Part shown: positions 371-30,212 of the stretch, piece by piece | Position numbering within the stretch: the stretch's first letter is position 1 | Layout of the letters: every line of letters starts with the position of its first letter | Assembly: GCA_017379935.1 (NCBI GenBank) | Contig: JAFNVC010000008.1 | Span: 1 to 36,343 of the forward strand | Origin: Clostridia bacterium | GTDB lineage: Bacteria; Bacillota; Clostridia; Oscillospirales; Acutalibacteraceae | DNA length: 36,343 nt | Direction of reading: 5' to 3' | Program-made: the position numbers and the translations under genes | The notes under the pieces: generated by a model | Databases searched by the model: none | What the model saw: the letters and a program-made list of their open reading frames with translations, nothing else | Told to the model about the DNA's origin: nothing

Positions 371-3229
371 TCAGCCTACAAACTTGATTGTAAGAATCTT
401 TTTGCCTGTGATTTCGAAATCTACGAATCCGTCCTCTTTCATTGTAAGAGGTGCAACGTCCTTCTCCTCAAGGCTGACGAGCTTAACCTCGCTCCACTTC
501 TTGCCTGAGTATGCGGGAAGCTCGAATTCTGCACGCTGTCTCTCAACGGGTGACTGTGCCTTCTCAATCGGAGCCATACCGCCGTTGAGACGGATAGACG
601 TATTAACTGTACAATCTGACGGATTGAAGATACGTACAACATAGCCCTCGCCGTCCTCGCTGAGCTTAACTGCGCTGACATTGAGCTTATCGCTCTCGAG
701 CTCAAGGAAGGAGTGAACGAGACCGTTCTTACCGTGCTCTGTCGGTGCAAGCTGTGCGATGCCGAATGAAAGATTGAAGCGCTCGGACTCGCCCCATACA
801 TTGCCCTCTTCCCAGTCGCCTGCGTGTGGCATAAATGCATAGCGGTATGTGTTAACACCGATGCACTGTGAGCCCTTATCAACGCGGCTGTAGTCCTGCA
901 TATCTGATGTTACGCAGATGCGGAGCGGGAATGCGCGGAGAAGTGAAAGATAAACCGTGCCGCACTCGTCATCGCTTGCCTCATAAGCCTTGAGGCCTGT
1001 GTTGAGAAGAGCAACGCCGTGTGTACCGTCCGTTACGTCAACGAAGGAGTTCATCGGATGCTCGGTCATCGGGATTTCATCATAAAGTGAGTAGTCGAGC
1101 TTTGCAACCTGACGCTTAACAACGTCAAACTGACCCTGAGCGTAGGAGAACTCTGACTTGATATCTGTCGGGAATGCAACCTGAAGGTAGTGATCCTCGG
1201 ACTGATTGTCGATTGTTGTTTCAATCTCAAGATACTTTGCGCCCTTGCGGAGAGTCACGATGCTGACAATCTTGCAGGGATTGAGGTGCTTTGAACGAGT
1301 CTTTTCGTCCATATTACGTCCCTCGGGAAGTGCCCAGTCAATTTCAATCTTATATGAAACCTCGAGCTCACCCTCGTGGAGAAGTGTAATCTTTGCACGC
1401 TCATTAAGAGTTGTGAAGGTCTCGTCGTTTTCGGGGATGATGTGCTCCCAGGGATTACCGATTTCGCCTGTATCCTTGAAGTAGCCGAGTCCCTCATAAG
1501 ACTTGCCGTTCACCTTATCGAGTACGTTGTATGTACCGTTAGCGTTGAATGAAACGCGGAGATATTCGTTCTCCATAACCTGTGCTCTCTTGAGCATTGT
1601 CTTCGGAGTATTTGCACGAACGTTATAAAGCGGCTGAAGCTTGAGTGTTCTGTAGCCGAAGCCGGGGATATCCTTAACGTCAACGACAATCTTATACTGC
1701 TGGGTATGAAGAACATTTGCAACGTCGTTCGGATTCTGGATAATCTGTGCAACGTGCTTGTTTGATGCAAGAATCTGATATGTGAGTGCTGTGCCGTCAA
1801 CATCAGTGATCTTGAATGAATCCGCCTTCCACTCTGCGGGAAGCTCGATTGTCATCTGAACGCTCTCGCTTCTCTTGAAGGGTGCGGGGTTGTAAACAAC
1901 GATAGCAGCATCGTCGCGTGTGAAGCCCTCGAGCTTGATGTCACCTGCAACGTCCATAAATGCACGCTCGTAAACGCAGTTTGAAAGCTCCTTTGACTGT
2001 CTGTAACGTGAAACAACATCCTCGTAAACGATATCACGTCCGCAGGCACCGATGCTGTCGTGGCCGTGGTTCTGAAGAAGATAGTTGTAGGAAAGGTCGA
2101 TGAAATTCTTCTGGAACGGTGCGCCTGCAAATGCAGAGAATACTGCGAGAGGCTCAGCGTAGTTCATAAGCTGAGTTTCTGTCTTGAAGTTATCCTGCTT
2201 GATGTATGTTCTTGCAGAAAGAATCCAACCCATAACGGGGCTTACGCTGCCCTTTGTGAACGGCTCACGCATCTCGCCCTTGAGTACGGGTGAGTTTTCG
2301 TCGAACTCGTCGATGATGCCCTGCTCCATCTCCTTAAGAGTGCTGTGGAATACCTCAGCGTTCGGAAGAACCTCGTCGAGATCCTTGATCATATCAACCT
2401 CACGGATATCCGGGCAGGATGAGTCGTGGCCGAGTGACCAGAAGCGGTGAGATGTTGTCCAGTCGCCGTCCTGCTCGCGCATAGCCTGCTCTGCACGCTC
2501 CTTGATGTTCTCCTTATGATACTCGAAGAACGGATGTGTATACTGATAGTCGAGCTTCTGATTCTCGTTATCCACAAACTTGAAGATACCGTTGTTATCG
2601 TTCCATACCATATCACGGTTGTTCTCGTTAGACTGATTGTAGTAAACGGGACGCTGAACGATATACCATATATTATAACGAGGACGCTTTGCAAGACGTG
2701 ACGCGTAGATGCGTGTTCCGTCGGGGCTTTCCCAATAGAATTCCGAACGGGGTGCCGTGTACTCGTTAACACCGCGGTAGAATGATGCAAAGTGAATATC
2801 AAAGCCTGCATAAATCTGCGGAAGCTGTGAAATCTGACCCCAGCCGAAGGGTGAATAGCCGGTCTTGCTGATGCCGCCCATTTCCTTGCCGATCTTATGA
2901 CCTAGGAGAAGGTTTCTGATAAGAGCCTCGCCGCCGACGGTGAACTCGTCGGGAAGACAGAACCAGGGACCTACACCGATTTTGCCCTCTGAAACAAGCT
3001 TCTTGAAAAGCTCCTTCTTCTCGGGATAAACCTCAAGGTAATCCTGAACAGGCATTGTCTGTGAGTCAAGGTGGAAATGCTTATACTCGGGATTCTTCTC
3101 GATGATGTCGATGAGCATATCGAGCATATAGCCGAGCATATACTGTGTTCTTCTTGCAGAGAAGCGCCACTCTCTGTCCCAATGAGTGTTGGATATAAAG
3201 TGACAGCTGATCTTCTTGTTGTTATCCAT
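371..3229 (-). CDS. GH38-like glycosyl hydrolase lacking the usual nucleophile Asp
   Basis: 952-residue cytoplasmic protein (no signal peptide) related to glycoside hydrolase family 38, which removes alpha-mannosyl residues using a Zn-bound Asp. The N-terminal motif THWDREW (His16, Asp18) and NHGHDSIG (about 386-393) match the metal-binding motifs of the family, and RIYASRLAKR and GEMREP lie between. In place of LPDSFG, which holds the nucleophile, the segment at 124-137 reads GYSPFGWGQISQLP, so Phe128 stands where Asp is expected. The protein may be a divergent hydrolase or have another role. The start was chosen for the AAGGAG site just upstream; a longer frame would add 22 unlikely residues. 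It is the last gene of a leftward operon, overlapping the small ORF upstream by 8 bases. Mannose-glycan metabolism is inferred from the family and the neighbouring GH38. Confidence 0.85.
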   Translation of the reverse strand: MDNNKKISCHFISNTHWDREWRFSARRTQYMLGYMLDMLIDIIEKNPEYKHFHLDSQTMPVQDYLEVYPEKKELFKKLVSEGKIGVGPWFCLPDEFTVGGEALIRNLLLGHKIGKEMGGISKTGYSPFGWGQISQLPQIYAGFDIHFASFYRGVNEYTAPRSEFYWESPDGTRIYASRLAKRPRYNIWYIVQRPVYYNQSNENNRDMVWNDNNGIFKFVDNENQKLDYQYTHPFFEYHKENIKERAEQAMREQDGDWTTSHRFWSLGHDSSCPDIREVDMIKDLDEVLPNAEVFHSTLKEMEQGIIDEFDENSPVLKGEMREPFTKGSVSPVMGWILSARTYIKQDNFKTETQLMNYAEPLAVFSAFAGAPFQKNFIDLSYNYLLQNHGHDSIGACGRDIVYEDVVSRYRQSKELSNCVYERAFMDVAGDIKLEGFTRDDAAIVVYNPAPFKRSESVQMTIELPAEWKADSFKITDVDGTALTYQILASNKHVAQIIQNPNDVANVLHTQQYKIVVDVKDIPGFGYRTLKLQPLYNVRANTPKTMLKRAQVMENEYLRVSFNANGTYNVLDKVNGKSYEGLGYFKDTGEIGNPWEHIIPENDETFTTLNERAKITLLHEGELEVSYKIEIDWALPEGRNMDEKTRSKHLNPCKIVSIVTLRKGAKYLEIETTIDNQSEDHYLQVAFPTDIKSEFSYAQGQFDVVKRQVAKLDYSLYDEIPMTEHPMNSFVDVTDGTHGVALLNTGLKAYEASDDECGTVYLSLLRAFPLRICVTSDMQDYSRVDKGSQCIGVNTYRYAFMPHAGDWEEGNVWGESERFNLSFGIAQLAPTEHGKNGLVHSFLELESDKLNVSAVKLSEDGEGYVVRIFNPSDCTVNTSIRLNGGMAPIEKAQSPVERQRAEFELPAYSGKKWSEVKLVSLEEKDVAPLTMKEDGFVDFEITGKKILTIKFVG

Positions 3230-3440
3230 TTGCTGTATCTCCTTCTGTATTTTCCTGCTCAGCCACGTCGCCGATTGTTGCGACGGACTGTGCATTCTCT
3301 GTTGGTTTTAAGGTTGTTTTAAGTCTTACTACACTTTTGTCGATATCCTTCTTATGATCAAGATATGCATCAACAAGCATAAGTGCGAAAAGAGTTAATG
3401 ACATTACGCTGATTACGGTTTTTGCCGAAAACTTTTTCAT
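3222..3440 (-). CDS. Small single-pass membrane protein, unknown function
   Basis: 72 residues beginning MKKFSAKTVISVMSLTLFAL: a basic start, one hydrophobic segment at about residues 8-24, then a charged, low-complexity tail rich in Glu, Thr and Asp. It reads as a type II membrane anchor or uncleaved signal sequence with a short tail. It sits between the HAD phosphatase (stop at 3448) and the GH38-like gene, and its stop codon overlaps the GH38 start (ATGGATAA), so translational coupling is likely. A TTG at 3443 is an alternative start. I do not recognise a family. The gene is supported by operon position and spacing only. Confidence 0.5.
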   Translation of the reverse strand: MKKFSAKTVISVMSLTLFALMLVDAYLDHKKDIDKSVVRLKTTLKPTENAQSVATIGDVAEQENTEGDTANG

Positions 3441-3447
3441 CAACCAA

Positions 3448-4443
3448 TCATCCCTTTATAATTTTTAAGATATCCTCAAAGCTGTCCTCGAAATAATTAC
3501 AAACAGCCTTTGTTCCGCTTTCAACAATGTTACCGCCTGCGATACCGATTGTTGTATAGCCTGCAAGACGTACCGAGCAAGCACCTGCGCCGCTGTCCTC
3601 GATGCCTACAACGTGGTTGCGGTCTGCAAAAGCCTCGCCGAGACCGACGATCGATGTCTCGGAGTAAAGCCACGGATGCGGCTTGGGTGAAAGCTCACCG
3701 AGAGTACCTACAGAGCCCTTGCGGAGCGGGAAGCCCGCAGAGATGATTGCATCGTAGAAATCCTTCGGATCGCCCATACCGAGAGTCTTGAATGCGGAAA
3801 GAATTTCAGGCCATGCCTTCTCATAAAGACCTGATGTAACAAGACCGATCTTGACACCCATATCCTTAAGCTCGTAGAGGAAATCCTTAACGCCGACTGT
3901 CGGAGTGAACGCGCCGTCCTTGCCTCTGCCGGCCATAATCTCTTCCATCTCTCTGTGAGTATGCTCGAAATAGAAATCGCGAGCCTTGTCGAGTGATGCA
4001 CCGGGGCAGTATTTATCGATACAGTACTGAAGATGCTCGGAAACCGAATGGCCTGAAACGAAGGGCATATCAGCCTCTTCAAGCTCAAACTTCGGATTGC
4101 CGAGAAGGCTTGCAATACTCATCTGAATAATCCAGATCCAGAACTCCTCACTGCGTACTGTTGTGCCGTCAAGATCCATAAGAACAGCCTTTACGGGCAT
4201 ATCAAGCTGTACGGGGTGAACGGGATAATATGTCGGATATGCGATTGCAGATTTTACGCAAGCGAGAGTGTGTGAGCCGAAGGAAACGAACTCAACCTTC
4301 TGGTCGCCTGTTGCAAGGATATCCACAACGCCGTTCTTGCCGACGGAGAACTTGCCGTCCTCTGTTGTCTCAAGCACGTGGAAGCCGCTGTCTGCACCGA
4401 TATCACCGAGATCGGGAATGTGAATTGTCTTATCAAGTAACAT
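3448..4443 (-). CDS. HAD-superfamily phosphatase/phosphomutase-like, with N-terminal extension
   Basis: 331 residues. Residues 1-83 form an extension of unknown fold. From about 84 on it is a HAD hydrolase of the beta-phosphoglucomutase-like subgroup: motif I VLMDLDGTTV (Asp90, Asp92), an alpha-helical cap, motif II in GLVTSGLYE, motif III Lys in SPKPHPW, motif IV VGIEDSGAGACS. Asp90 should form the phospho-aspartate, with Asp92 as acid/base. The substrate is probably a sugar phosphate, inferred from the family and from the adjoining GH38 genes. First gene of a leftward operon with a strong promoter at 4484-4512. The ATG at 4443 has an AGAGGA site 8 bases upstream and gives a more natural start than the frame that begins 11 codons earlier. 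Confidence 0.8.
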   Translation of the reverse strand: MLLDKTIHIPDLGDIGADSGFHVLETTEDGKFSVGKNGVVDILATGDQKVEFVSFGSHTLACVKSAIAYPTYYPVHPVQLDMPVKAVLMDLDGTTVRSEEFWIWIIQMSIASLLGNPKFELEEADMPFVSGHSVSEHLQYCIDKYCPGASLDKARDFYFEHTHREMEEIMAGRGKDGAFTPTVGVKDFLYELKDMGVKIGLVTSGLYEKAWPEILSAFKTLGMGDPKDFYDAIISAGFPLRKGSVGTLGELSPKPHPWLYSETSIVGLGEAFADRNHVVGIEDSGAGACSVRLAGYTTIGIAGGNIVESGTKAVCNYFEDSFEDILKIIKG

Positions 4444-4483
4444 AAAAAACATCCTCTTTTTTCCTAATATAGTCAATCACTTT

Positions 4484-4512
4484 ATATTAACAAAGCGTGC
4501 AAAAAATGTCAA
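4484..4512 (-). promoter_or_regulatory. Promoter of the leftward HAD/GH38-like operon
   Basis: On the minus strand TTGACA (4507-4512), a 17-base spacer, then TAATAT (4484-4489). The start site would be near 4477, leaving a leader of about 35 bases before the ATG at 4443. It lies 55 bases from the divergent promoter of the second mannosidase, so one regulator could control both. Confidence 0.75.
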
Positions 4513-4567
4513 TCGGATTTTCGTAAAAAAACTGTGTTTTTTCTGCAATTTACGATGTCATAATTTG

Positions 4568-4596
4568 TTGACTTTTGGTTGATTTGTAAGTATAAT
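4568..4596 (+). promoter_or_regulatory. Promoter of the rightward alpha-mannosidase operon
   Basis: TTGACT (4568-4573), a 17-base spacer, TATAAT (4591-4596). The start would be near 4603. It overlaps the upstream part of an open frame that begins at 4579, so that upstream start cannot be used and translation must begin further in, at 4678. Confidence 0.8.
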
Positions 4597-4677
4597 TACT
4601 TTATCTATTCTGTTTTTCCGACGGCTCGGAAAACACGGAATATGCAAAGAAAAATTAACGATGCGGAGAGTCAGTCT

Positions 4678-7600
4678 ATGGATAAATTACTCGACAAAAG
4701 AATACGCACGATGATAGAAGCTCTGGAAGGCTTTGTTACACCCGTCCGTCTTGATATGACAGGTTGGAAAACGCTTCCCTGCGACTACAAAAAAGATAAC
4801 ACGGTACCCTCACCCGACCTTGACAGCTGGCAGGATTTCGGCGTAACCCAGACATGGGGCGAAAATCCCGAGGAGCACCGTTGGTTCTATAAGCATATTG
4901 AAATCCCCGAGGAGCTTAAGGGTCAGGACGTTGAGCTTTACGTTTCTTCAACAGATCCGCACGGTCAGCAGTGGGATCCGCAATTCATCGCTTACCTTGA
5001 CGGTAAGGAAATCCGCGGTCTTGATTCCAACCACCGTTACCTCAAGCTCGACAGCAGCAGGGACGGCTATGACGTTCACATATATGCTTATTCAAAGCCT
5101 CACGGCGAAAGAGCATATTTTTACAGCCAGCTTTGCACCTTCAACAGAGATGTTGAAAAGCTCTACTATGACTTAAAGGTTCCGTACGAGGTTATAGAAT
5201 ACCTCGACGATATGGATAAGAACCGCGGAGATATCATCCTCCGCCTCAACGAGGCACTCAATCTGCTCAACTGGTGCGCTCCGATGAGCGAGGAATTCCT
5301 CGAGTCCGTCCGCAAGGCCTGCAAATATATGGACACCGAATTCTACGGTAAATTCTGCAAGGAGCAGGATATTCAGGTAAGCTGTACGGGACATACTCAT
5401 ATCGACGTTGCATGGCGATGGACGCTCGAGCAGACACGTGAGAAGGTTCAGCGTACCTTCGGCAGCGTTATTGAGATGATGAAGAAATATCCCGACTACC
5501 GCTTTATGTCCAGCCAGCCGCAGCTTCTTAAATACCTTAAAGAGGATGCTCCCGAAATGTACGAGGAGGTAAAGCGCCTCGTCAAGGAAGGCCGTTTCGA
5601 GCTCGAGGGCTCAATGTGGGTTGAGGCTGACTGTAACCTTTCAAGCGGTGAATCGCTCGTGCGTCAGATTATGCACGGCAAACGCTTCTTCAAGGACGAG
5701 TTCGGCGTTGATAACAAAACCGTATGGCTTCCCGACGTCTTCGGTTACAGTGCCGCTATGCCTCAGATTATGAAAAAGAGCGGTATCGACAAGTTCGTAA
5801 CCTCAAAAATCGCCTGGAACGAAACCAACCGTCTCCCCTACGACACCTTCACATGGCAGGGCATCGACGGCTCACAGGTTTTTACATATTTCCTGACAGC
5901 AATCGAAAGAACAAAGAATTTCGAGAGCATGTACTGGCGTTCAACCTATACCCCCGACACAACTCCCTCCTACGTTCAGGGCACATGGGACAGATATGAG
6001 CCCAAGGCTCTCAATAAGGAGCTTCTTATGCCCTTCGGTCACGGTGACGGAGGCGGCGGACCGGCAGACAACCATATTGAATATTTTAACCGTCTCAAGC
6101 ACGGCATCAACGGCTGTCCGCAGGTCAAGTGGGAAAGCGCCGGCGATTTTCTCGAAAGACTCCGCACGAAGCTCGAGGGCAACAAGCGTCTCCCGAAATG
6201 GGTGGGCGAGCTTTACCTTGAGTTCCACAGAGGCACCTACACCTCACAGGCAAAGAACAAGAGAAATAACAGAAAATCCGAGTTCCTTTATCAGAACACC
6301 GAGCTTGTATGCTCGATGGCTGACAAGCTTCTCGGTGCAGAATATCCTCAGGCTGAGCTTAACGAGGGCTGGGAGGGAATTCTTCTCAATCAGTTCCACG
6401 ATATCATCCCCGGCTCTTCAATCCGCTCCGTTTATGAGCGCTGCGACGAGGATTACAAAAAGATTATCGGTTCCGCAACAGAGCTTGAAGGCAAAGCTTA
6501 TAAGTCACTCCTTGCTAACATAGGCACAAACGGAGGCGTTGCTGTATTCAATCAGAACTCCTTCGAGTCGAACGGCTATGTTGACTACAACGGCAGAACA
6601 TACCGCGTCAACGGCATCCCCGCAAAGGGCTACAAGGTCGTTGACCTTGCTGACGCTGAGCCCGTTGTTTACGTCCGTGACGGCAAGCATCTCGAAACAA
6701 GCAACTATATCGTTGAATTCAACGACGAATATGTCATCACCCGTCTTTATGATAAGGTGAACGAGCGTGAGGTTCTCCGCGAGGGCGGCAGAGCAAACTA
6801 CATTGAGGCATTCGAGGATTACCCGTACGAATACGATGCATGGGAAATCTCCAAATACTATACTGAAAAGAAATACGAAATCAACGACGTAAGCGACGTT
6901 CAGTTTATCGACGAGGGCGCACGCTTCGGCTTTGAAATCACAAGAAAGTTCTACAAGTCCGTTATCAAGCAGAAGATTTACTTCTACGACGGCTCAAACC
7001 GAATCGACTTCGACACCTATGCTGACTGGCATCAGGAGCATCTCTTCCTCAAGGCAGCATTCGATGTTGACGTCAATTCCGACAAGGCAACTTACGAAAT
7101 CCAGTTCGGCTCGGTTGAGCGTCCCGTTCATAAGAACACAAGCTGGGAATCCGCAAAGTTCGAGGTCTGCGCTCATAAGTATATCGACTATGCAGACTAC
7201 GGCTACGGCGTATCACTTCTCAACGACTGCAAGTACGGTCACAACATCGAAAACGGCACAATGAAGCTTTCAATGTTCAAGTGTGCAACTCATCCGGATC
7301 CCGAGGCGGACAAGGGTGAGCATATCTTCACATATTCACTCTTCCCGCACGCAGGTAACTTCCGCGAGAACGGCACCGTACAGCTTGCTTACGAGCTCAA
7401 CTGTCCGCTCAGGGCTTTCGGAATCGGCAAGCAGGACGGCTCTCTCCCCGAGGAGTATTCATTCATCACAACAAGTGCAGACAGCTTCATCGTCGAAACC
7501 GCAAAGAAGGCAGAGGCTGACGATGCACTCGTTGTCCGCGGCTATGAAGCATACAACAAGCGTACAAAGGTCAGACTCGATTTCGGCTACGATATCACAA

Positions 7601-23260: not shown

Positions 23261-24112
23261 ATGTTCAGATCAATCATCTCATTCCTGGCATCAATCCTCA
23301 TTTCTATCTGTATCACGCTCGATATCCCCTGCTACCCGATGGGTAAAAAGGTCGATATGGATAAATTTGAAATCACCTATGAGGAAGAATTTGAGGGTGA
23401 GCTTGACCGCAGCGTATGGTCGGGTCACTATCAGTACGGCAACACTACCGTAGCAAGAAGAGGAAGCTACTGGAATCAGTATCTCGCCGAGACAAAGGAC
23501 GGCAACCTCGTCATTCCCGTAACCTATCTTGAGGACGGTATGGGCGGTAAGGGTGCAGGCTGGTACACCGCCGGCATCGACACGGACGAGGATTCCGAAA
23601 ACGGCTTCAGCCAGAAGTTCGGTTACTTTGAGTGCAGATGTATTCTTCCCGAGGGCGCTGACCTCTGGAGTGCCTTCTGGCTTATGAACAGCGGTGTTTA
23701 CGACGAAAACGGCGACGGCAGAGACGGCACGGAAATTGATATTTTTGAAAGCAACTGCTACGGTGATCTGTTTAACAAGGCGATCACATCCAACCTTCAT
23801 ATTGACGGCTACGGCGACGCTCATCAGAAGCACGGCGCAAGAAAGTTCTTCATCAAAAACAATCCCTACGAGGAATTTAACACCTACGGACTCGAGTGGA
23901 ACGAGAACGAGTATATTTTCTATATCAACGGTGTTGAGACCTTCCGCACAGATTTCGGTGGAGTCAGCCAGAACGAAGAATACATTGTTCTTTCGGTGGA
24001 AATGGACGGCGAGGACGGCGTTACATCAGGCAGAGAAAATGCACCCGCAGAGGGAACGGAATTCATCGTTGATTATGTAAAGGTTTACCAGTACAAAAAT
24101 CTGATGGAGTGA
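23261..24112 (+). CDS. GH16 glycoside hydrolase (beta-glucanase-like), secreted or anchored
   Basis: 283 residues. An N-terminal hydrophobic segment (3-22) forms a signal or anchor. The GH16 catalytic domain runs from about 38: YEEEFEGELDRSVW, GYFECRCILPEGADLWSAFWLM, the active-site motif GTEIDIFES (nucleophile Glu158, Asp160, acid/base Glu163), HIDGYGDAHQKHG and the C-terminal FIVDYVKVYQY. Such enzymes cut beta-1,3- or beta-1,3-1,4-glucans or related polysaccharides. RBS AAGGAGGG is 6 bases before the ATG. It is followed closely by the DUF4177-like gene. Confidence 0.92.
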   Translation: MFRSIISFLASILISICITLDIPCYPMGKKVDMDKFEITYEEEFEGELDRSVWSGHYQYGNTTVARRGSYWNQYLAETKDGNLVIPVTYLEDGMGGKGAGWYTAGIDTDEDSENGFSQKFGYFECRCILPEGADLWSAFWLMNSGVYDENGDGRDGTEIDIFESNCYGDLFNKAITSNLHIDGYGDAHQKHGARKFFIKNNPYEEFNTYGLEWNENEYIFYINGVETFRTDFGGVSQNEEYIVLSVEMDGEDGVTSGRENAPAEGTEFIVDYVKVYQYKNLME

Positions 24113-24362: not shown

Positions 24363-24863
24363 TTATTCATTTATAATCTCATTATATTTTTCAAGATTGA
24401 TTTTCTTGTCCGCGAGCATCTGCTCAACCCAGAGCTGAAGGCTTTCAATGGTGATCGAAAGCTGCTCGAGCTTTCTCTGGATAGAAACGAAATCCCGGAT
24501 TTCGTCATCGTTTATCTGACCGTTCGAGGTTATTTCGATAAGACGCTCCTGACTGTTTTTCATTGAATTCAGTGAAAAAAGCATTTCGAGAATAATCTGT
24601 GAAAGGTCCTTGACCTCAACCTCGGGAACGTACTTTTTACCGATGGGACATTCGTTTGCGCAGAAGTGATTGCAGAGTGTCGGCTCGCCGTAAATTTTCG
24701 AAAGGAGCATAATCTCTTCGGGAGTGATGCTGAATTTTCCGTTTTCAATACGCTCAAGTCTCTCCGGCTGAAGCGGAAAATCCAGCTCCGCCGCCTTGTC
24801 GCATACCTCGTCACGGGTAAGCCCGTGCCTTTTTCTTGTTTCCTTATAAATTGTGTCCGCCAT
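24363..24863 (-). CDS. XRE-like regulator with Cys cluster and coiled-coil tail
   Basis: 166 residues. An N-terminal HTH (about 1-60: YKETRKRHGLTRDEVCDKAAELDF...RLERIENGKFSITPEEIMLLSKIYG) is followed by a cysteine cluster, Cys64-X3-Cys68-X3-Cys72 in LCNHFCANECPIGKKYVP, and a helical tail (about 85-160) that is likely coiled coil. The three Cys in this spacing could hold a metal or FeS cluster, making a redox or metal sensor, an inference. RBS AGGAG is 9 bases before the ATG. Its own extended -10 promoter is upstream. No target is identified; the aldolase operon stops just upstream of it. Confidence 0.75.
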   Translation of the reverse strand: MADTIYKETRKRHGLTRDEVCDKAAELDFPLQPERLERIENGKFSITPEEIMLLSKIYGEPTLCNHFCANECPIGKKYVPEVEVKDLSQIILEMLFSLNSMKNSQERLIEITSNGQINDDEIRDFVSIQRKLEQLSITIESLQLWVEQMLADKKINLEKYNEIINE

Positions 24864-24894
24864 TTTTATTTTCTCCTCTTTCCGTAGTAGAAAA

Positions 24895-24900
24895 ATTATA
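24895..24900 (-). promoter_or_regulatory. Extended -10 promoter of the Cys-cluster XRE gene
   Basis: TGATATAAT on the minus strand, with TATAAT at 24895-24900 and a TG dinucleotide one base before it, 31 bases from the ATG at 24863. The -35 region is weak, as often with extended -10 promoters. Confidence 0.5.
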
Positions 24901-24937
24901 TCACACTTCTGAGAATAAATAAAGATATAAAAGAAAA

Positions 24938-24973
24938 AAGGGAATGTAAAAACAAAAGCTTTTACATTCCCTT
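24938..24973 (-). terminator. Terminator of the aldolase/aminotransferase operon
   Basis: A 14-bp perfect stem (AAGGGAATGTAAAA with its complement) around an 8-base loop, followed on the minus strand by a run of T. It lies 13 bases after the aldolase stop codon. Confidence 0.85.
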
Positions 24974-24986
24974 GATTTATTGGATT

Positions 24987-26195
24987 TTACTCAGCCTTCT
25001 TGGAGTACTTTGTCTGATAGATAACTCTCATTATCTTTGCATCGATCGGGCTTAATGCCTCACCTGCGCCGAAGAATACTGAGCCGATGTGAGTCTGACA
25101 CTCTCTTGACATAATAAGCTCAACCGCGTCAAGGTCACTTTCCTTTGTGCCTGTGCAAAGAGCACCTGCACCGCGGATAAGAACAGCGTTACTGCCCTTT
25201 ACAGCCTTTGCCGCCGCCTTCGCGGAAGCACGTGAGCCGTCCCACTTGAAGGAATTGATCTTTGTGCCTGCAATCTGTGCAAAGTCGTCAAGACGCGGCA
25301 TAATCGTCGGCTGTGCAACGCTCACTGCAACCATTTCGCTTGCTGTGAGATGCTTGATAAAGCCTGCGTTTGTCTTTGCATAAATTTCAGCGTGAACCAT
25401 TGCTGTTGCGGGAACATCGTCAGCCTCTGCTGATTTTGCGGTCTTGATATCAACTGTAAAGCTCTTGCCGTTCTTGTAACGGATTTCGAACTTTGAGCCG
25501 ATTCTTGCGCTTTCGCCGAAGTCTGCAATCTCCTTGGGCATCTTTCCTGCACCGACAGTCTTGATGTAGCTGTTAAGCATACCCTTATAGGAATATTCTG
25601 AAGTACCTTCATAAAGAAGGTAAGCCTTCTGAATCTTTTCCTCGCAAAGGTTTTCAAGCTCTGAAACAACCTCAAAAGCCTGCTCGAAGCTGTTACCCGT
25701 AACAACAGCACCGTGCTGCTTCATAAGAATAGCCTTGCTGTTCGGATACTGTGCATAAGCTGTCTCGACAGCCTTGCGGAGCTTTGAGGTTGAGGGCATA
25801 CCATAATCTGCAACGGGAACGCAGTCTCCGAAGAGAGCCGCATATTTTTCGGGAACGTCAATGTTCTTGCCCGCCGCACCGACAACGGAAGCCTTTATCT
25901 GATGAGTGTGAATAACGAAATTTTCTTCGGGGCGGAGTCTGTAAGCATCAGCGTGAACACCCTTTTCACTCGACGGCTTGATATCTCCCTCGTATGAGCA
26001 GTCAGCAATATTGACAACAACGATATCGTCGGGAGTGAGCGTTTCATAAGCTCTGCCGCTCGGAGTGATAACGAACTGAGTGTCAGAAATCCTTGCACTT
26101 ACGTTACCCCAAGTACGTGCGATAAGACCTGTCTCGAGAAGCTTTTTGCCTGCTTCAACAACAAGCTCTTTTGCTTCCTGAATATTGTAAGCCAT
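24987..26195 (-). CDS. Class II aldolase/adducin-family protein with duplicated, degenerate second lobe
   Basis: 402 residues, about twice the usual length. Residues 1-200 form an intact fuculose-phosphate-aldolase-like domain: ARTWGNVSARI, SGRAYETLTPDDIVVV, Glu77 in SSEKGVHADAY, Zn ligands His96 and His98 in VIHTHQIKAS, and His161 in MKQHGAVVTG. Residues 230-402 look like a second copy: VHAEIYAKTNAGFIKHL aligns with the VHADAYRLRPEENFVIHTH region and VLIRGAGALCTG with the MKQHGAVVTG region, but the second His and the Glu are lost. So only the first lobe should cleave substrate, presumably a ketose phosphate to DHAP plus an aldehyde. RBS AGGAG, ATG at 26195. Downstream of the aminotransferase by 29 bases in one operon. 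Confidence 0.87.
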   Translation of the reverse strand: MAYNIQEAKELVVEAGKKLLETGLIARTWGNVSARISDTQFVITPSGRAYETLTPDDIVVVNIADCSYEGDIKPSSEKGVHADAYRLRPEENFVIHTHQIKASVVGAAGKNIDVPEKYAALFGDCVPVADYGMPSTSKLRKAVETAYAQYPNSKAILMKQHGAVVTGNSFEQAFEVVSELENLCEEKIQKAYLLYEGTSEYSYKGMLNSYIKTVGAGKMPKEIADFGESARIGSKFEIRYKNGKSFTVDIKTAKSAEADDVPATAMVHAEIYAKTNAGFIKHLTASEMVAVSVAQPTIMPRLDDFAQIAGTKINSFKWDGSRASAKAAAKAVKGSNAVLIRGAGALCTGTKESDLDAVELIMSRECQTHIGSVFFGAGEALSPIDAKIMRVIYQTKYSKKAE

Positions 26196-26224
26196 AACTA
26201 TATCTCCTAAAAGATGAAATATGA

Positions 26225-27703
26225 TTAACCGATACGGCCGCAGTTATCGAATACTCTGTCGAAGCGTGCGATTGCATCGTCGATATCTTCCTCAGTGTAA
26301 GCAGCACTTGTGTAAAGACGGCTGCCTGCAAGAGTAACCATACCCTCTGCCATATATGCAGCACCCATATGCTCCATTTCCTTCTTACGAGCGCTTGTCT
26401 GCTTGAGAACATCGGGAATCTGCCACGGCTTTGACCAGTCGATTGAATAATGCATTGTACCAACTGTATCAAGGTGACAAATTGAGCCCTGGTTGAATGC
26501 TACGAAGGGAAGATTGTGCTTCTCAATGGACTTCTGGAGACCCTTTGTGAGTCTGTCGCCCATTTCGCCTGCCTTCTGGCAAGCATTTGACTCTTCGATT
26601 TCGCAAAGAGTATAGTAACCTGCAACGCATGAAAGCGGAGTAGCAGCCATTGTACCGCCGCACATTGCCTTCTTAACCTTCTTGCCTGAGCCGTCAAGAC
26701 CTGCGCCGAGGTGAGCCATAACATCCTTATGACCGCCGATACCGCCGGCACCGGGATATCCGCCTGCGATGATCTTACCGAAGATTGTGATATCGGGATC
26801 TACGCCGAAGTAGCCCTGTGCGCCTGAAACGCCGATACGGAAGCCTGTAACAACCTCATCGAATACGAGGAGTGCGCCGTACTGACGGCAAAGCTTCTCA
26901 ACGCCCTTAACGAATGCCTTGCTGAGGGGACGTGTGCCGCTCTCGGGGCCAACGGGCTCAAGGAATACAGCAGCTGTACCGCCGATGAGCTGATTTTTCT
27001 TAAGCTTCTTCTCGAGGTCTTCAAGATCGTTCGGGAAGAATTCGTCTGTATGCTTGAATACGAACATCGGAACGCCGGGAGACTGGAGGTTCTTTGTACC
27101 CGGAACTCTCATACCGTAAGCGAGCTGATCCGACCAGCCGTGGTATGCGCCGCCCATCTTGAGGATGTTCTTCTTACCTGTTGCAAGACGAGCAACACGG
27201 ACAGCACACATACAAGCCTCTGTACCTGAACCGAGCATACGGAACATTTCAACTGAAGGAACACACTCTGCAATCTTGTTTGCGAGCTTGTACTCGTACT
27301 CGTGGAAAAGACCTGTTGAAGGACCGCAGTCATTAAGGAGCTCGATAACCTTGTTACGGATCTTCTCGGGATTGGAGCCTACGATTGTCGGGCCGCCTGC
27401 CTGAAGGAAGTCGTAATACTCGTTACCGTCGATGTCATAAAGCTTGTTGCCCTGTGCCTTTGTGAAAACAAGGGGGAACGGATAGTTGAATGCAAGGTTG
27501 TGCTGAACGCCGCCGGGGATACGTCCCTTAGCAACATCAATCATTTCCTTGGATTTAACGCATTTCTTTGCGAAGTACTCTTCCTCGTACTTCTTGAGAG
27601 CCTCGGGCTTAACGCTGTAAATCGGCTTTTTGATGAGCGCGTCGAGCTGTTTTGTAACAGCATCAGCGTCAAGATACTTGGTGATAGCAAAATTTTCAGC
27701 CAT
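26225..27703 (-). CDS. Class III aminotransferase (glutamate-1-semialdehyde aminomutase-like)
   Basis: 492 residues. PLP fold type I of the class III type: N-terminal extension of about 50 residues, GRIPGGVQHNL, YDIDGNEYYDFLQAGGPTIVG, RMLGSGTEACMCAVRVAR, GGAYHGWSDQ, LLVFDEVVTGFR (Asp282) and the Schiff-base Lys310 in IFGKIIAGGYPGAGGIG. The order and motifs resemble HemL, but no heme gene is near and the protein is longer, so a substrate-specific transaminase acting on a sugar-derived aldehyde or ketone is more likely. The start ATG at 27703 has CGGAGGAA 4 bases upstream. First gene of the leftward operon, divergent from the FGGY kinase. Confidence 0.88.
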   Translation of the reverse strand: MAENFAITKYLDADAVTKQLDALIKKPIYSVKPEALKKYEEEYFAKKCVKSKEMIDVAKGRIPGGVQHNLAFNYPFPLVFTKAQGNKLYDIDGNEYYDFLQAGGPTIVGSNPEKIRNKVIELLNDCGPSTGLFHEYEYKLANKIAECVPSVEMFRMLGSGTEACMCAVRVARLATGKKNILKMGGAYHGWSDQLAYGMRVPGTKNLQSPGVPMFVFKHTDEFFPNDLEDLEKKLKKNQLIGGTAAVFLEPVGPESGTRPLSKAFVKGVEKLCRQYGALLVFDEVVTGFRIGVSGAQGYFGVDPDITIFGKIIAGGYPGAGGIGGHKDVMAHLGAGLDGSGKKVKKAMCGGTMAATPLSCVAGYYTLCEIEESNACQKAGEMGDRLTKGLQKSIEKHNLPFVAFNQGSICHLDTVGTMHYSIDWSKPWQIPDVLKQTSARKKEMEHMGAAYMAEGMVTLAGSRLYTSAAYTEEDIDDAIARFDRVFDNCGRIG

Positions 27704-27738
27704 GGTAATTCCTCCGATATATGTATTGTTTTTGTAAA

Positions 27739-27757
27739 TATAGCGATAACGCTTTAT
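27739..27757. promoter_or_regulatory. Candidate operator palindrome in the divergent region
   Basis: AGCG-ATAA-CGCT (27742-27753), flanked by a TATA-like arm on each side, is a short dyad between the aminotransferase start and the leftward -10. It sits in the leader just downstream of that promoter, a common repressor site. No regulator gene is adjacent. Confidence 0.3.
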
Positions 27758-27768
27758 ATCCAATATGC

Positions 27769-27777
27769 AGTATAACA
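27769..27777 (-). promoter_or_regulatory. Extended -10 promoter of the aminotransferase/aldolase operon
   Basis: On the minus strand TGTTATACT, a TGn motif followed by TATACT (27769-27774), about 66 bases before the ATG at 27703. The -35 is AT-rich and weak. Confidence 0.45.
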
Positions 27778-27845
27778 CATATAATAAAAAAATTAAATGT
27801 TTTTTTGTATTTTTTAAAAAATTTTTACAAATTTATACATTTTTA

Positions 27846-27854
27846 TGTTACAAT
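27846..27854 (+). promoter_or_regulatory. Extended -10 promoter of the FGGY kinase operon
   Basis: TGTTACAAT (TGn plus TACAAT, 27849-27854), 29 bases before the ATG at 27884. TTTACA at 27824-27829 is a possible -35 with a long 19-base spacer. The divergent pair of promoters lies within about 80 bases. Confidence 0.45.
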
Positions 27855-27883
27855 GTCATTAACACAAATTGGGGGTATTTAAA

Positions 27884-29479
27884 ATGGCTATCTATGTTAT
27901 CGCTTACGATGTCGGTACAACCGGTATGAAAACCTGTCTTTTCGAGATTGATAAGACAATCAGACCCATCACAAACGCTTACGGCGCATACAACCTTTAT
28001 ATGGTCGGCGACGGCGGTGCAGAGCAGGATCCCAACGAATGGTGGGGCGCGATGTGCTCAACCACAAAGGAGCTTTTCAGCAAAACTGATATCAAGCCTT
28101 CGCAGATCGCAGGTATCTCCTTCTGTTCTCAGGCGCAGGGTCTCGTCCTCGTTGACAAGGACGGCAACCCCGTCCGAAGAGCGATGAGCTATATGGACCA
28201 GCGCGCAAAGGAAGAGCTTAAAAAATATATGGCATACGGCTTGCAGATTGCAGGCGCAAACATTGTTCCGCTTCTCAAGTCCCTTATCGCTACGGGTGCG
28301 GTTGCCTGCAGTGTCAAGGACCCCGTTTACAAATATAAGTGGGTCGAGGCTCACGAGCCTGACGTATACAAGAAAATTCACAAGTGGCTCGACGTTAAGG
28401 ATTTCCTCATCAGCCGTTGCACGGGTGAGTTCGCAATGACAAAGGATTCAGCCTTCGCAACCCTTCTTTATGACACCAGAAAGGGCAAGGAGGGCTGGAG
28501 CAAGAGCGTTACGGGCATTTTTGACGTTAATATGGACCATCTCCCGAAGATTCTCGGCTCAACCGACGTTGTCGGAACAGTTACCGCAAAGGCGGCTGAA
28601 CAGCTCGGACTCGCAGAAGGCACGCCCGTATTCGGAGGAGGAAGCGACTCCTCACTCATCGGTGTCGGCGCAGGCAGCGGCGCTGTCGGCGACACTCATA
28701 TCTATCAGGGTACATCAGGCTGGGTCGGCACGGTTGTTGAAAAGCAGCTCGTCGATACATCGGCTATGATTGCGGCTATCGTCGGCGCAGATCCCGATTC
28801 CTTCGTTTACTTTGCAGAGCTTGAAACCGCAGGCAAGTGTCTTGAATGGGTGCGCGATCACCTCTGCCTTGACGAAATCGGCATCTTCAAGCAGAAGATG
28901 GACGTTGCCGAGGATCCCGAAACAGAGTACACAAGCCTTTACGATTATATGACAAAGGTTATCAGCGAGGTGCCCGCAGGCTCAAACGGTGTTATTTTCA
29001 CTCCGTGGCTTCACGGCAACCGCTGTCCGTTCGAGGACCCGAACGCATCAGGTATGTTCTTCAACATCAGCATTGATACAGGCAAATCCGAGATGCTCCG
29101 TGCAGTTATCGAGGGCGTTTGCTTCCATCTTAACTGGATGCTTGAGGCTCAGAACAAGAAGATAAAAACATCTGACGTTATCCGCTTTGTCGGCGGCGGC
29201 GCACTTTCGGATGTTACAAGCCAGATTCTCGCAGATATCACGGGCAAAACCGTCGAGGTTGTCGGCCGTCCGCAGGATATCGGTGCTGTCGGTGCCGCGG
29301 CAATGGTCGGCATCGGTCTCGGAGTTATCGAAAGCGTCAGCAAGGTAAAGGAATTTGTCCCCGCTGTCAAGACCTTCAAGCCGAACACAGCCAACAGAGC
29401 GGTTTACGACAAGAACTTTGCCGTATTCAAGACTCTTTACAAGAATAATAAAGACAGCTTCAAAGCGTTGAACGGATGA
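27884..29479 (+). CDS. FGGY-family carbohydrate kinase (xylulokinase-like)
   Basis: 531 residues. FGGY kinase fold with the ATP and substrate motifs YVIAYDVGTTGMKTCLFE (N-lobe phosphate loop), AEQDPNEWW, GISFCSQAQGLVLVD, RAMSYMDQRA, PVFGGGSDSSLIGVGAG (Asp of the active site), IYQGTSGWVG, and C-lobe RFVGGGALSDVTSQILADITGKTVEVV...DIGAVGAAAMVG. It phosphorylates a sugar or polyol with ATP. The ATG at 27884 with GGGGG 8 bases upstream is preferred to the TTG at 27869, which falls in the leader. First of four rightward genes and divergent from the aldolase/aminotransferase pair, so they likely act in one route. Confidence 0.92.
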   Translation: MAIYVIAYDVGTTGMKTCLFEIDKTIRPITNAYGAYNLYMVGDGGAEQDPNEWWGAMCSTTKELFSKTDIKPSQIAGISFCSQAQGLVLVDKDGNPVRRAMSYMDQRAKEELKKYMAYGLQIAGANIVPLLKSLIATGAVACSVKDPVYKYKWVEAHEPDVYKKIHKWLDVKDFLISRCTGEFAMTKDSAFATLLYDTRKGKEGWSKSVTGIFDVNMDHLPKILGSTDVVGTVTAKAAEQLGLAEGTPVFGGGSDSSLIGVGAGSGAVGDTHIYQGTSGWVGTVVEKQLVDTSAMIAAIVGADPDSFVYFAELETAGKCLEWVRDHLCLDEIGIFKQKMDVAEDPETEYTSLYDYMTKVISEVPAGSNGVIFTPWLHGNRCPFEDPNASGMFFNISIDTGKSEMLRAVIEGVCFHLNWMLEAQNKKIKTSDVIRFVGGGALSDVTSQILADITGKTVEVVGRPQDIGAVGAAAMVGIGLGVIESVSKVKEFVPAVKTFKPNTANRAVYDKNFAVFKTLYKNNKDSFKALNG

Positions 29480-29483
29480 TTTT

Positions 29484-30212
29484 TTGAAAAAGGCTATCCT
29501 GACAATTACATTAGCTTCCGCAATAATTTTCTGCCTTGTGTCTGCGATTTTACCGCGGCACAAGGCGGACTTGTATAGTGCGCTTTATGAGCAGAACATA
29601 ACGATAGAAAAATCACAGGAAAATGAAATCGAGCTTAAAAAAGGAGACTGTTTTGTACTCGGTGAAATTTACGGTGAGCCGATAGTATGGGAGATTATCG
29701 AGGACGGTGATTCCCCTCTCGCGTGGTCGCTTAATACAATCTGCTTCAGAGCGTATGACGAAAAATCTTCCGATTGGGAAACAAGCGACCTGCGGGAATG
29801 GCTCAACAGCGGAAACGGATTTTTGTCGGAGGAAAATTTCGCTTCAACCGAAATCATATCATCAGATAAAGACTGTGATAAAATATTTTTGCTTTCCAAA
29901 AATCAACTTCAGAAATTTTCCGAAGCTGAAAGAGCAAAGGCTCCGACCGCTTCGGCAGTCAGAAATGACGGCTCGGATAAATTAGTTATCCGTAAAAACT
30001 GCTGGTACTGGACAAGCAGTCCGATAGAAACAAATTCCTCGAGCGTGACGGCTGTCACAAGCTCAGGCGGATTTTACAAAACCCTCCCCACGGATACACT
30101 GATGGGCGTCTGCCCCGCATTTTACCTGCAAAGCAAAACCGTAACCGTCCTCGGCGGTAACGGCACAGCAGAAAAGCCGTATGTTATTGCAACGGGAGGT
30201 GAACCCCGATGA
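29484..30212 (+). CDS. Membrane-anchored DUF6273 protein
   Basis: 242 residues. An N-terminal hydrophobic segment (3-22) anchors or exports it. The remaining domain has the DUF6273 pattern: KKGDCFVLGEIYGEPIVWEIIEDGD, WETSDLREWLNSGNGFLSEENF, DKIFLLSKNQLQKFSEAER, WYWTSSPIE, and GVCPAFYLQ before the final strands. The domain is related to formylglycine-generating/SUMF1-like folds but its role is unknown. TTG start at 29484, 4 bases after the kinase stop. Overlaps the next gene by ATGA. Confidence 0.75.
   Translation: MKKAILTITLASAIIFCLVSAILPRHKADLYSALYEQNITIEKSQENEIELKKGDCFVLGEIYGEPIVWEIIEDGDSPLAWSLNTICFRAYDEKSSDWETSDLREWLNSGNGFLSEENFASTEIISSDKDCDKIFLLSKNQLQKFSEAERAKAPTASAVRNDGSDKLVIRKNCWYWTSSPIETNSSSVTAVTSSGGFYKTLPTDTLMGVCPAFYLQSKTVTVLGGNGTAEKPYVIATGGEPR

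Follow-up and report, generated by a model that had tools for sequence, protein, structure and literature searches.

The window analysed here, by which we mean the whole stretch of 36,343 nucleotides taken from contig JAFNVC010000008.1 of a Clostridia bacterium of the family Acutalibacteraceae (assembly GCA_017379935.1), holds at positions 24987-29479 three genes encoding a class III pyridoxal 5'-phosphate (PLP) aminotransferase (AT), a class II aldolase (ALD) and an FGGY kinase (KIN). That this trio forms a single unusual pathway is well supported; it is a strongly conserved pathway in distant bacteria, without an assigned function in the libraries searched. It is proposed, at somewhat less than even chances, that the trio serves to degrade a long-chain 2-amino-1,3,4-triol, among which phytosphingosine (4-hydroxysphinganine) is the likeliest. 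The strongest support for this substrate comes from its stereochemistry, from two class 3 aldehyde dehydrogenases encoded in unrelated loci, and from the co-occurrence of the trio with a second module, which contains another aminotransferase (AT2) and an SCP2-like protein, each of these lines being circumstantial. The elements of the locus are as follows.

26225..27703, minus strand: AT, class III PLP aminotransferase, 492 amino acids from the conserved ATG at 27703 (PF00202, E 1.7e-53).
24987..26195, minus strand: ALD, two-domain class II aldolase, 402 amino acids (PF00596, E 6.3e-53).
25626..26195, minus strand: catalytic N-terminal domain of ALD, about residues 1-190.
25071..25514, minus strand: second domain of ALD, a degenerate class II aldolase, about residues 228-375.
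27884..29479, plus strand: KIN, FGGY carbohydrate-type kinase, 531 amino acids from the ATG (FGGY_N, E 3.3e-48; FGGY_C, E 1.2e-29).
27704..27883, no strand: A+T-rich divergent intergenic region between AT and KIN.
24938..24973, minus strand: inverted repeat with a T-run past ALD, 16 pairs of which 5 are GC, a probable terminator.

The genes are arranged in two divergent units, AT being followed by ALD on the minus strand after 29 bases, and KIN being read in the opposite direction, with 180 bases between the start codons of AT and KIN. An earlier note on this DNA had described an intact aldolase, a class III PLP enzyme with Lys310 and Asp282 and an FGGY kinase in two such units, and the open reading frames, the Pfam matches and the invariant residues bear this description out. 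The same note had placed a palindrome between the divergent genes and promoters within about 80 bases of each other, neither of which was recovered. The intergenic region shows no clear operator palindrome, only A+T-rich short or imperfect matches, and a promoter consensus scan gives in it a single weak match on the minus strand and none on the plus strand (10 sites over the whole of 24700-29700, against 5.3 +/- 2.4 in shuffled sequences). In many relatives, a TetR gene sits between KIN and AT, although none lies beside the trio of the window.

AT belongs to the class III aminotransferases (PF00202), as do HemL and its relatives GntE, D-phenylglycine aminotransferase and the aminopentol aminotransferase 6hbs, and both Asp282 and Lys310, the latter forming the Schiff base with PLP, are invariant in the 11 AT sequences aligned. 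Its nearest solved relative is 3bs8, and it matches 6hbs, presumably FumI, which we take to act on a sphingoid-like amine, with an E-value of 2.7e-24. The earlier note had considered that AT might be a plain glutamate-1-semialdehyde (GSA) aminomutase, an identity which was tried and rejected. AT scores 272.3 with the hemL model TIGR00713 (cut-off 527.3), about half of what is required, and 287.6 with NF000818 (cut-off 398), and none of the 25 NCBIfam models listed is matched above its cut-off. Moreover, the Arg of the HemL motif SPVRAF faces a gap in AT when this is aligned to 3bs8, and the C-terminal Glu of FEGLF faces Ser461, both HemL residues being, as we assume, involved in substrate binding. 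In the alignment of the 11 AT sequences, QHNLA is present in all, and position 461 is Ser in ten and Thr in one. AT also carries an N-terminal extension of about 45 residues relative to HemL. As judged from its sequence, AT is a distinct GSA-aminomutase-like subfamily, not HemL. The window genome (84.84% complete) encodes two further class III enzymes: one scores 203.6 against the hemL cut-off of 527.3, and the other, the strongest general Aminotran_3 match of the genome (337 bits), may be ArgD-like.

In the catalytic domain of ALD, the equivalents of FucA N29, S43, G44, S71, S72, E73, H92, H94 and H155, to which we assign catalytic, zinc and phosphate-site roles as in FucA, are kept in 36 of 36 and in 14 of 15 sequences of two alignments, the exception being the Burkholderia ALD, in which His and Glu are kept and two phosphate-site positions are occupied by Ala and Val. 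With three zinc His, the catalytic Glu and the phosphate site, ALD is a class II (FucA-type) aldolase; it shares fold and active-site residues with the L-fuculose-1-phosphate and ribulose-1-phosphate aldolases, and (3R,4R) chemistry would be expected of it. It differs from this family in an additional degenerate aldolase domain and in a conserved YxxKYSK tail, which ends the protein after that domain. None of the fuculose-1-phosphate aldolase models reaches its cut-off (TIGR01086, 90.3 against 400.25; NF005302, 109.9 against 264; NF053831, 112.4 against 300), and the best NCBIfam score, 121 bits, is well short of the cut-offs.

The extended length of the aldolase, to which the earlier note had drawn attention, is explained by this second, degenerate class II aldolase domain, which hhalign matches to the profile of the N-terminal domain with a probability of 99.3 (E 1.4e-20). 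In the window ALD, this domain retains a single one of the three zinc His and no catalytic Glu, and therefore its role is probably structural. The aldolases of L115 and L116 consist of the catalytic domain and the YxxKYSK tail alone, and the aldolase of the Burkholderia plasmid is a single domain of 217 amino acids. The next gene but one past the latter encodes a protein of 215 amino acids with a weak match to the aldolase fold (hhalign, N-domain E 1.8e-5, probability 78; C-domain E 1.1e-4, probability 57), so in Burkholderia the degenerate domain may be present as a separate subunit.

KIN has both FGGY domains, and D9, G11 and T12 of the N-terminal D-G-T motif, together with the catalytic D255, are intact in 14 of 14 sequences; the two domains and the Asp are shared with the xylulokinase-like FGGY kinases. 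Its best model is xylulokinase, with 294.6 bits, under the cut-off of 380.25, and it is also under the cut-offs of 12 other models listed.

A scan of public genomes gave 278 relatives, and the locus counts that follow rest on the best 80 of these. ALD is present in 76 of the 80 loci, KIN in 59 and TetR in 44; among the 48 loci with more than 3.5 kb on both sides, the figures are 47, 39 and 28, respectively. Of the 73 loci with more than 1 kb to the right, 68 have the start of ALD no more than 700 bases downstream of AT and in the same orientation. No KIN is in view in 21 loci. Seventeen of the genomes concerned were searched, and KIN (61-68% identity) was found elsewhere in 16, although several of the 17 hold AT near a contig end, so a separate KIN is not proven to be unlinked in all of them; the sole genome without a match is that of L079, and in an eighteenth (L063) KIN is cut by contig ends. 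Where KIN is separate from AT, its neighbours are mostly TetR, GH3 or housekeeping-looking genes, with no new constant partner among them. These counts answer in the affirmative the question of co-conservation, on which the earlier note had made its proposal depend.

Within the set, conservation is highest in AT. Its identity to the window protein is 72-98% across Bacillota, including gut Clostridia, Paenibacillus, Evansella and Hydrogenispora, and in the same loci ALD ranges over 36-96% and KIN over 57-96%, the latter range excluding second, unrelated FGGY kinases of L024 and L032. The subfamily is sparse: it was found in five of 397 other genomes of the own-phylum sample, one of them as two contig-edge pieces, and in six of 246 genomes of the Paenibacillus order sample, counting the genome at its centre (G399). 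A further sample, from the phylum of G398, gave the same positive genomes as the own-phylum sample and is not independent of it. Among 72,556 plasmid records (E limit 1e-60), AT is carried by two, pNP243 of Butyrivibrio fibrisolvens (L084; KIN, ALD, GtrA, AT), with 56% identity, and plas1 of Burkholderia ambifaria CF3 (L085), with 54%. Taking into account that on these plasmids the trio lies near insertion sequence (IS) elements, it may move between bacteria. Habitats given in the titles of the 80 loci include 17 ruminant or horse gut or rumen sites, and six more are labelled "Lapin" (rabbit). One contig, L030, is titled Bacteroides sp. and encodes an AT 78% identical to that of the window, a title which may reflect a binning error; the same genome (G400) has a second locus with the order AT-ALD-TetR-KIN (L121).

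Thirty neighbour clusters recur in at least three of the 80 loci, and no sugar isomerase or phosphotransferase system (PTS) part was found in this group, each cluster being identified from one representative by Pfam or read from a homologue (as was done for two transketolase clusters and the SCP2-like cluster), with four clusters having no Pfam match and non-recurrent neighbours not all looked up. This bears on the simplest explanation, in which the aldolase and the kinase serve ordinary fucose, rhamnose or arabinose use and AT is a stray GSA aminomutase. It would account for the enzyme families and for nothing else. KIN and ALD are under the cut-offs of the FucA, FucK, RhaB and AraD models, AT misses the hemL models and has lost the residues presumed to bind the HemL substrate, and the trio is co-conserved across distant taxa; with the cut-offs missed and no isomerase among the recurrent neighbours, standard use of these sugars was rejected, and we find this explanation hardly credible. 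The view of the earlier note that the aminotransferase joins a kinase-aldolase pair in one pathway, with no linked isomerase and no assigned function, has held.

Amine removal, a kinase and a DHAP-type (dihydroxyacetone phosphate) aldolase, in a set without an isomerase, would suit a 2-amino-1,3,4-triol. It is proposed that AT first transfers the C2 amino group of phytosphingosine to a keto acid, which would give 1,3,4-trihydroxy-2-octadecanone, chemically a lipid ketose. This compound would then be phosphorylated by KIN at C1, its sole primary hydroxyl, and the FucA-type zinc aldolase would split the C3-C4 bond, releasing DHAP, destined for glycolysis, and pentadecanal, which would be taken by an aldehyde dehydrogenase or reductase. 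No isomerase is needed on such a route, which would explain the absence of one. We infer the substrate itself, the order of the first two steps and the position that is phosphorylated.

The stereochemistry of phytosphingosine agrees with this proposal. D-ribo-phytosphingosine has the configuration 2S,3S,4R, which a hand-coded check of the Cahn-Ingold-Prelog rules reproduces, and the same check gives (3R,4R) for its 2-ketone, as in D-ribulose. Passages of PMC11274987 describe four DHAP aldolases with four complementary C3/C4 configurations, fuculose-1-phosphate aldolase being the one that makes (3R,4R, D-erythro) diols. Thus, the natural stereochemistry of phytosphingosine is what the aldolase family expects. 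Habitat also speaks for this substrate: besides the gut and rumen sites in the locus titles, the mouse stomach and the small and large intestine are described in PMC10140171 as rich in phytosphingosine ceramides. A search of open-access papers found no aminotransferase-kinase-aldolase route for sphingoid bases.

The evidence for phytosphingosine applies equally to other amphipathic amino-alcohols with the same 2-amino-1,3,4-triol head, such as sphingoid variants from bacteria or plants, bases with branching or unsaturation (t18:1) or some other amino-lipid, and nothing in the data restricts the length of the chain or its unsaturation. None of these variants is specifically supported, and that one of them is the true substrate seems to us improbable.

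The genes that accompany the trio in other loci help to weigh these possibilities. On the Burkholderia plasmid, the order is TetR, KIN, ALD, AT, the degenerate-aldolase-like protein, a short-chain dehydrogenase/reductase and an aldehyde dehydrogenase, after which an Mpo1-like gene (PF06127, E 2.8e-23), adjoining an IS5 element, lies on the opposite strand. The aldehyde dehydrogenase, three genes past the last gene of the trio, belongs to class 3; its best PDB match is 6k0z, and it matches human fatty aldehyde dehydrogenase (4qgk) with E 3.3e-94, benzaldehyde dehydrogenase (5ucd) being slightly closer (3.9e-97). In Hydrogenispora (L083/L122), AT-ALD-KIN is followed directly by a class 3 aldehyde dehydrogenase, which is 40% identical to that of Burkholderia and matches 4qgk with E 2.7e-113 and 5ucd with 2.1e-98. 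The sequences of both show an enzyme class for hydrophobic aldehydes, by which the exact substrate is not fixed. On the Butyrivibrio plasmid, an aldehyde dehydrogenase 33% identical to that of L085 is encoded about 5 kb from AT, past an IS66 element.

Carriers are also found. A major facilitator superfamily (MFS) protein of the FLVCR type belongs to the set in L025, L043, L046, L113 and L114-L117, the nearest solved relatives of the L043 protein being FLVCR1 and FLVCR2 (E 3.5e-34), with one entry named choline/ethanolamine transporter. A GtrA-family membrane protein is present in ten of the 80 loci and on the Butyrivibrio plasmid. The relationship of the FLVCR-like proteins to choline/ethanolamine carriers would also fit a pathway running towards amination, in which an ordinary ketose is broken down by KIN and ALD, the aldehyde so released is aminated by AT and the amino-alcohol formed leaves through the carrier, a kinase and an aldolase being the normal ending of a sugar pathway. 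Nevertheless, no ketose-forming isomerase is among the recurrent neighbours, the aldehyde dehydrogenases of two loci would compete for the aldehyde, and AT is the most conserved of the set, as suits the first committed step, all of which makes amination in this direction very improbable.

A more serious competitor of phytosphingosine is a soluble 2-amino-2-deoxy polyol, amino sugar or iminosugar, from which AT would form a ketose, KIN a ketose 1-phosphate, and ALD DHAP and a short aldehyde. KIN and ALD belong to sugar families, and sugar-type neighbours are not lacking: symporters of the GPH type adjoin KIN in some loci, L032 has upstream of AT aldolases of the fructose-bisphosphate (FBP) type along with a PfkB and a second FGGY kinase, and in three genomes (L081, L140, L141) a GH3 enzyme whose domains are in swapped order, and which could be a glucosidase feeding the pathway, stands beside TetR-KIN. 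Against this, the recurrent neighbour clusters hold no sugar isomerase or PTS part, and a soluble substrate would leave unexplained the class 3 aldehyde dehydrogenases, the Mpo1-like, FLVCR-like and TetR partners and the correlation with a ceramidase-family gene described below. The class 3 aldehyde dehydrogenases, the Mpo1-like and FLVCR-like proteins, TetR, the SCP2-like module and, in one lineage, the ceramidase-family gene point to an amphipathic amino-alcohol. We rank a phytosphingosine-type base ahead of soluble amino polyols and sugars, which we regard as possible but doubtful. Of the proposal in the earlier note of a route for an amino-substituted sugar or polyol, the amino-substituted substrate is retained, whereas its identity as a sugar or polyol is less supported.

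The second module was found in the window genome (G000), where genes for an SCP2-like protein, AT2, the N-terminal and C-terminal parts of a transketolase and a second small protein follow one another (L120, 8810-13654). AT2 is the other GSA-like class III aminotransferase, on contig C24 (module entry 25630-26892). The same set divergently adjoins AT-ALD in L064, L028 and L038, and it is also listed for L158 and L160. AT2 is present in 27 of the 40 AT-positive genomes searched, and in five of the 299 genomes of the phylum sample: the AT-positive G000, G130 and G160, which represent three different families (AT2 of G130 and G160, 46-49% identity), together with G159 and G219 (61-63%). Taking the number of AT-positive genomes in this sample as six at most, the co-occurrence of AT2 and AT has a Fisher p of 4.5e-5.

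The SCP2-like and AT2 genes adjoin each other in all four other genomes examined, with an amino acid permease adjoining them in G219. The window-genome copy of the SCP2-like protein matches SCP2 with an E-value of 0.14 and has no PDB match; it owes its name to the homologue of G160, 30% identical to the L064 copy, which scores 26.8 with the SCP2 Pfam model (cut-off 21.3). No family match was found for the second small protein.

It has been considered that gut Clostridia could have a two-module catabolism of sphingoid bases without sphingosine-1-phosphate (S1P) lyase, with the trio serving 4-hydroxylated bases and the second module those that are 3-hydroxylated only. In the latter, AT2 would deaminate the base to a 1,3-dihydroxy-2-ketone, which in the case of sphinganine would be a transketolase-type donor; its cleavage at C2-C3 would yield a fatty aldehyde and a two-carbon unit, the latter being transferred to a sugar. 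A transketolase follows AT2 in G159 and G130; however, none is beside AT2 in G160 and G219, which speaks against this division of labour, and we judge it unlikely.

The ceramidase family provides a further correlation. In the Paenibacillus order sample, PF04734 matches were obtained in 50 of the 246 genomes, and full-length ones, to proteins of the neutral-ceramidase family (E below 1e-160, 509 of 509 positions), in five (G410, G418, G423, G427 and G478). Within this one order, the full-length family is present in four of the six AT-positive genomes and in one of the 240 AT-negative genomes (Fisher p 5e-7). In the own-phylum sample (n = 299), 19 genomes have a PF04734 match, weak or better, and AT-positive G160 is the sole one with a strong match (E 2.6e-60), its motif being GDVSPH. 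Weak ceramidase-like matches, in eight of 40 carriers of AT and 19 of the 299 phylum genomes, were given little weight, the former eight being N-terminal only; four of these eight carriers are those most closely related to the window genome. In the latter, contigs C27, C33 and C34 hold four weak Ceramidase_alk-like matches, restricted to the N-terminal part, two of them above the Pfam cut-off.

Several observations weigh against phytosphingosine as the substrate. The four ceramidase-positive carriers are closely related (AT 92-98% identical), and when they are collapsed to one lineage the p value rises to 0.025. Their ceramidases have the motif GDVTPN, and that of AT-negative G478 has GDVSPN; the Ser of the latter motif is presumably the catalytic one, and with Thr in its place the activity of the four carrier enzymes is therefore uncertain. 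No PF04734 match at all was obtained in 32 of the 40 genomes with AT that were searched, and the other eight have weak, N-terminal ones. The Mpo1-like gene was seen in one locus alone, beside an IS5 element; in the 80 loci, relatives of the Burkholderia aldehyde dehydrogenase are limited to that of L083 and a fragment in L025, and for both dehydrogenases the best NCBIfam model is the benzaldehyde dehydrogenase MdlD, whose cut-off is not reached. To our knowledge, FGGY kinases all act on sugars and polyols. A symporter of the MelB/GPH type, usually a sugar carrier, immediately follows KIN in L055 and L074, and follows it with one gene in between in L037 and L039. Finally, in L032 the genes AT, ALD, TetR, KIN, GtrA come after a sugar-type set (1212-5858) made up, in this order, of an FBP-type aldolase, a second FGGY kinase, another FBP-type aldolase and a PfkB kinase, the last of which ends only 15 bases before AT; L024 has a similar set farther from AT (1297-7088). 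These sets may or may not be part of the pathway of the trio.

Other neighbours are less informative. A gene with an EEP domain past KIN in L037/L039 was considered as a sphingomyelinase, which found no support, its best PDB match being TDP2 with E 0.035 and its Pfam match Exo_endo_phos only. In the window, a glycoside hydrolase family 16 protein (23261-24112, plus strand) is encoded near the trio and has no counterpart in the 80 loci at the thresholds used. ALD is adjoined by a gene for an HTH_3-like protein of 166 amino acids, slightly under the Pfam cut-off (24363-24863, minus strand), which recurs solely in L004-L006, and a DUF6273 protein is encoded directly 3' of KIN (29484-30212, plus strand), recurring solely in L004-L007.

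The catabolism of phytosphingosine is known from other systems. In eukaryotes, the degradation of this base proceeds through a long-chain base kinase, S1P lyase, fatty aldehyde dehydrogenase and Mpo1, with a C2-C3 cut that releases phosphoethanolamine. The route proposed here would start from the same base, and one bacterial locus combines class 3 aldehyde dehydrogenase and Mpo1-like partners; however, it would deaminate before C-C cleavage, cut C3-C4 and yield DHAP, with no S1P lyase step. Among bacteria, SphBCD of Pseudomonas aeruginosa likewise handles sphingoid bases, including phytosphingosine. As far as PMC11893366 covers it, the sphBC system consists of a periplasmic oxidase and a cytochrome c, and the term aminotransferase does not occur in the main text of that article.

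If the proposed route is correct, anaerobic gut bacteria would convert phytosphingosine, derived from plants, fungi and the gut lining, to DHAP and an odd-chain aldehyde, with sugar-pathway enzymes standing in for S1P lyase. The trio would then serve as a genetic marker of sphingoid-base use in metagenomes and might be a source of odd-chain fatty acids, and it would allow a direct test of the removal of sphingoid bases by the microbiota. With any other substrate, it would still be a strongly conserved pathway of distant bacteria, to which the libraries searched assign no function.

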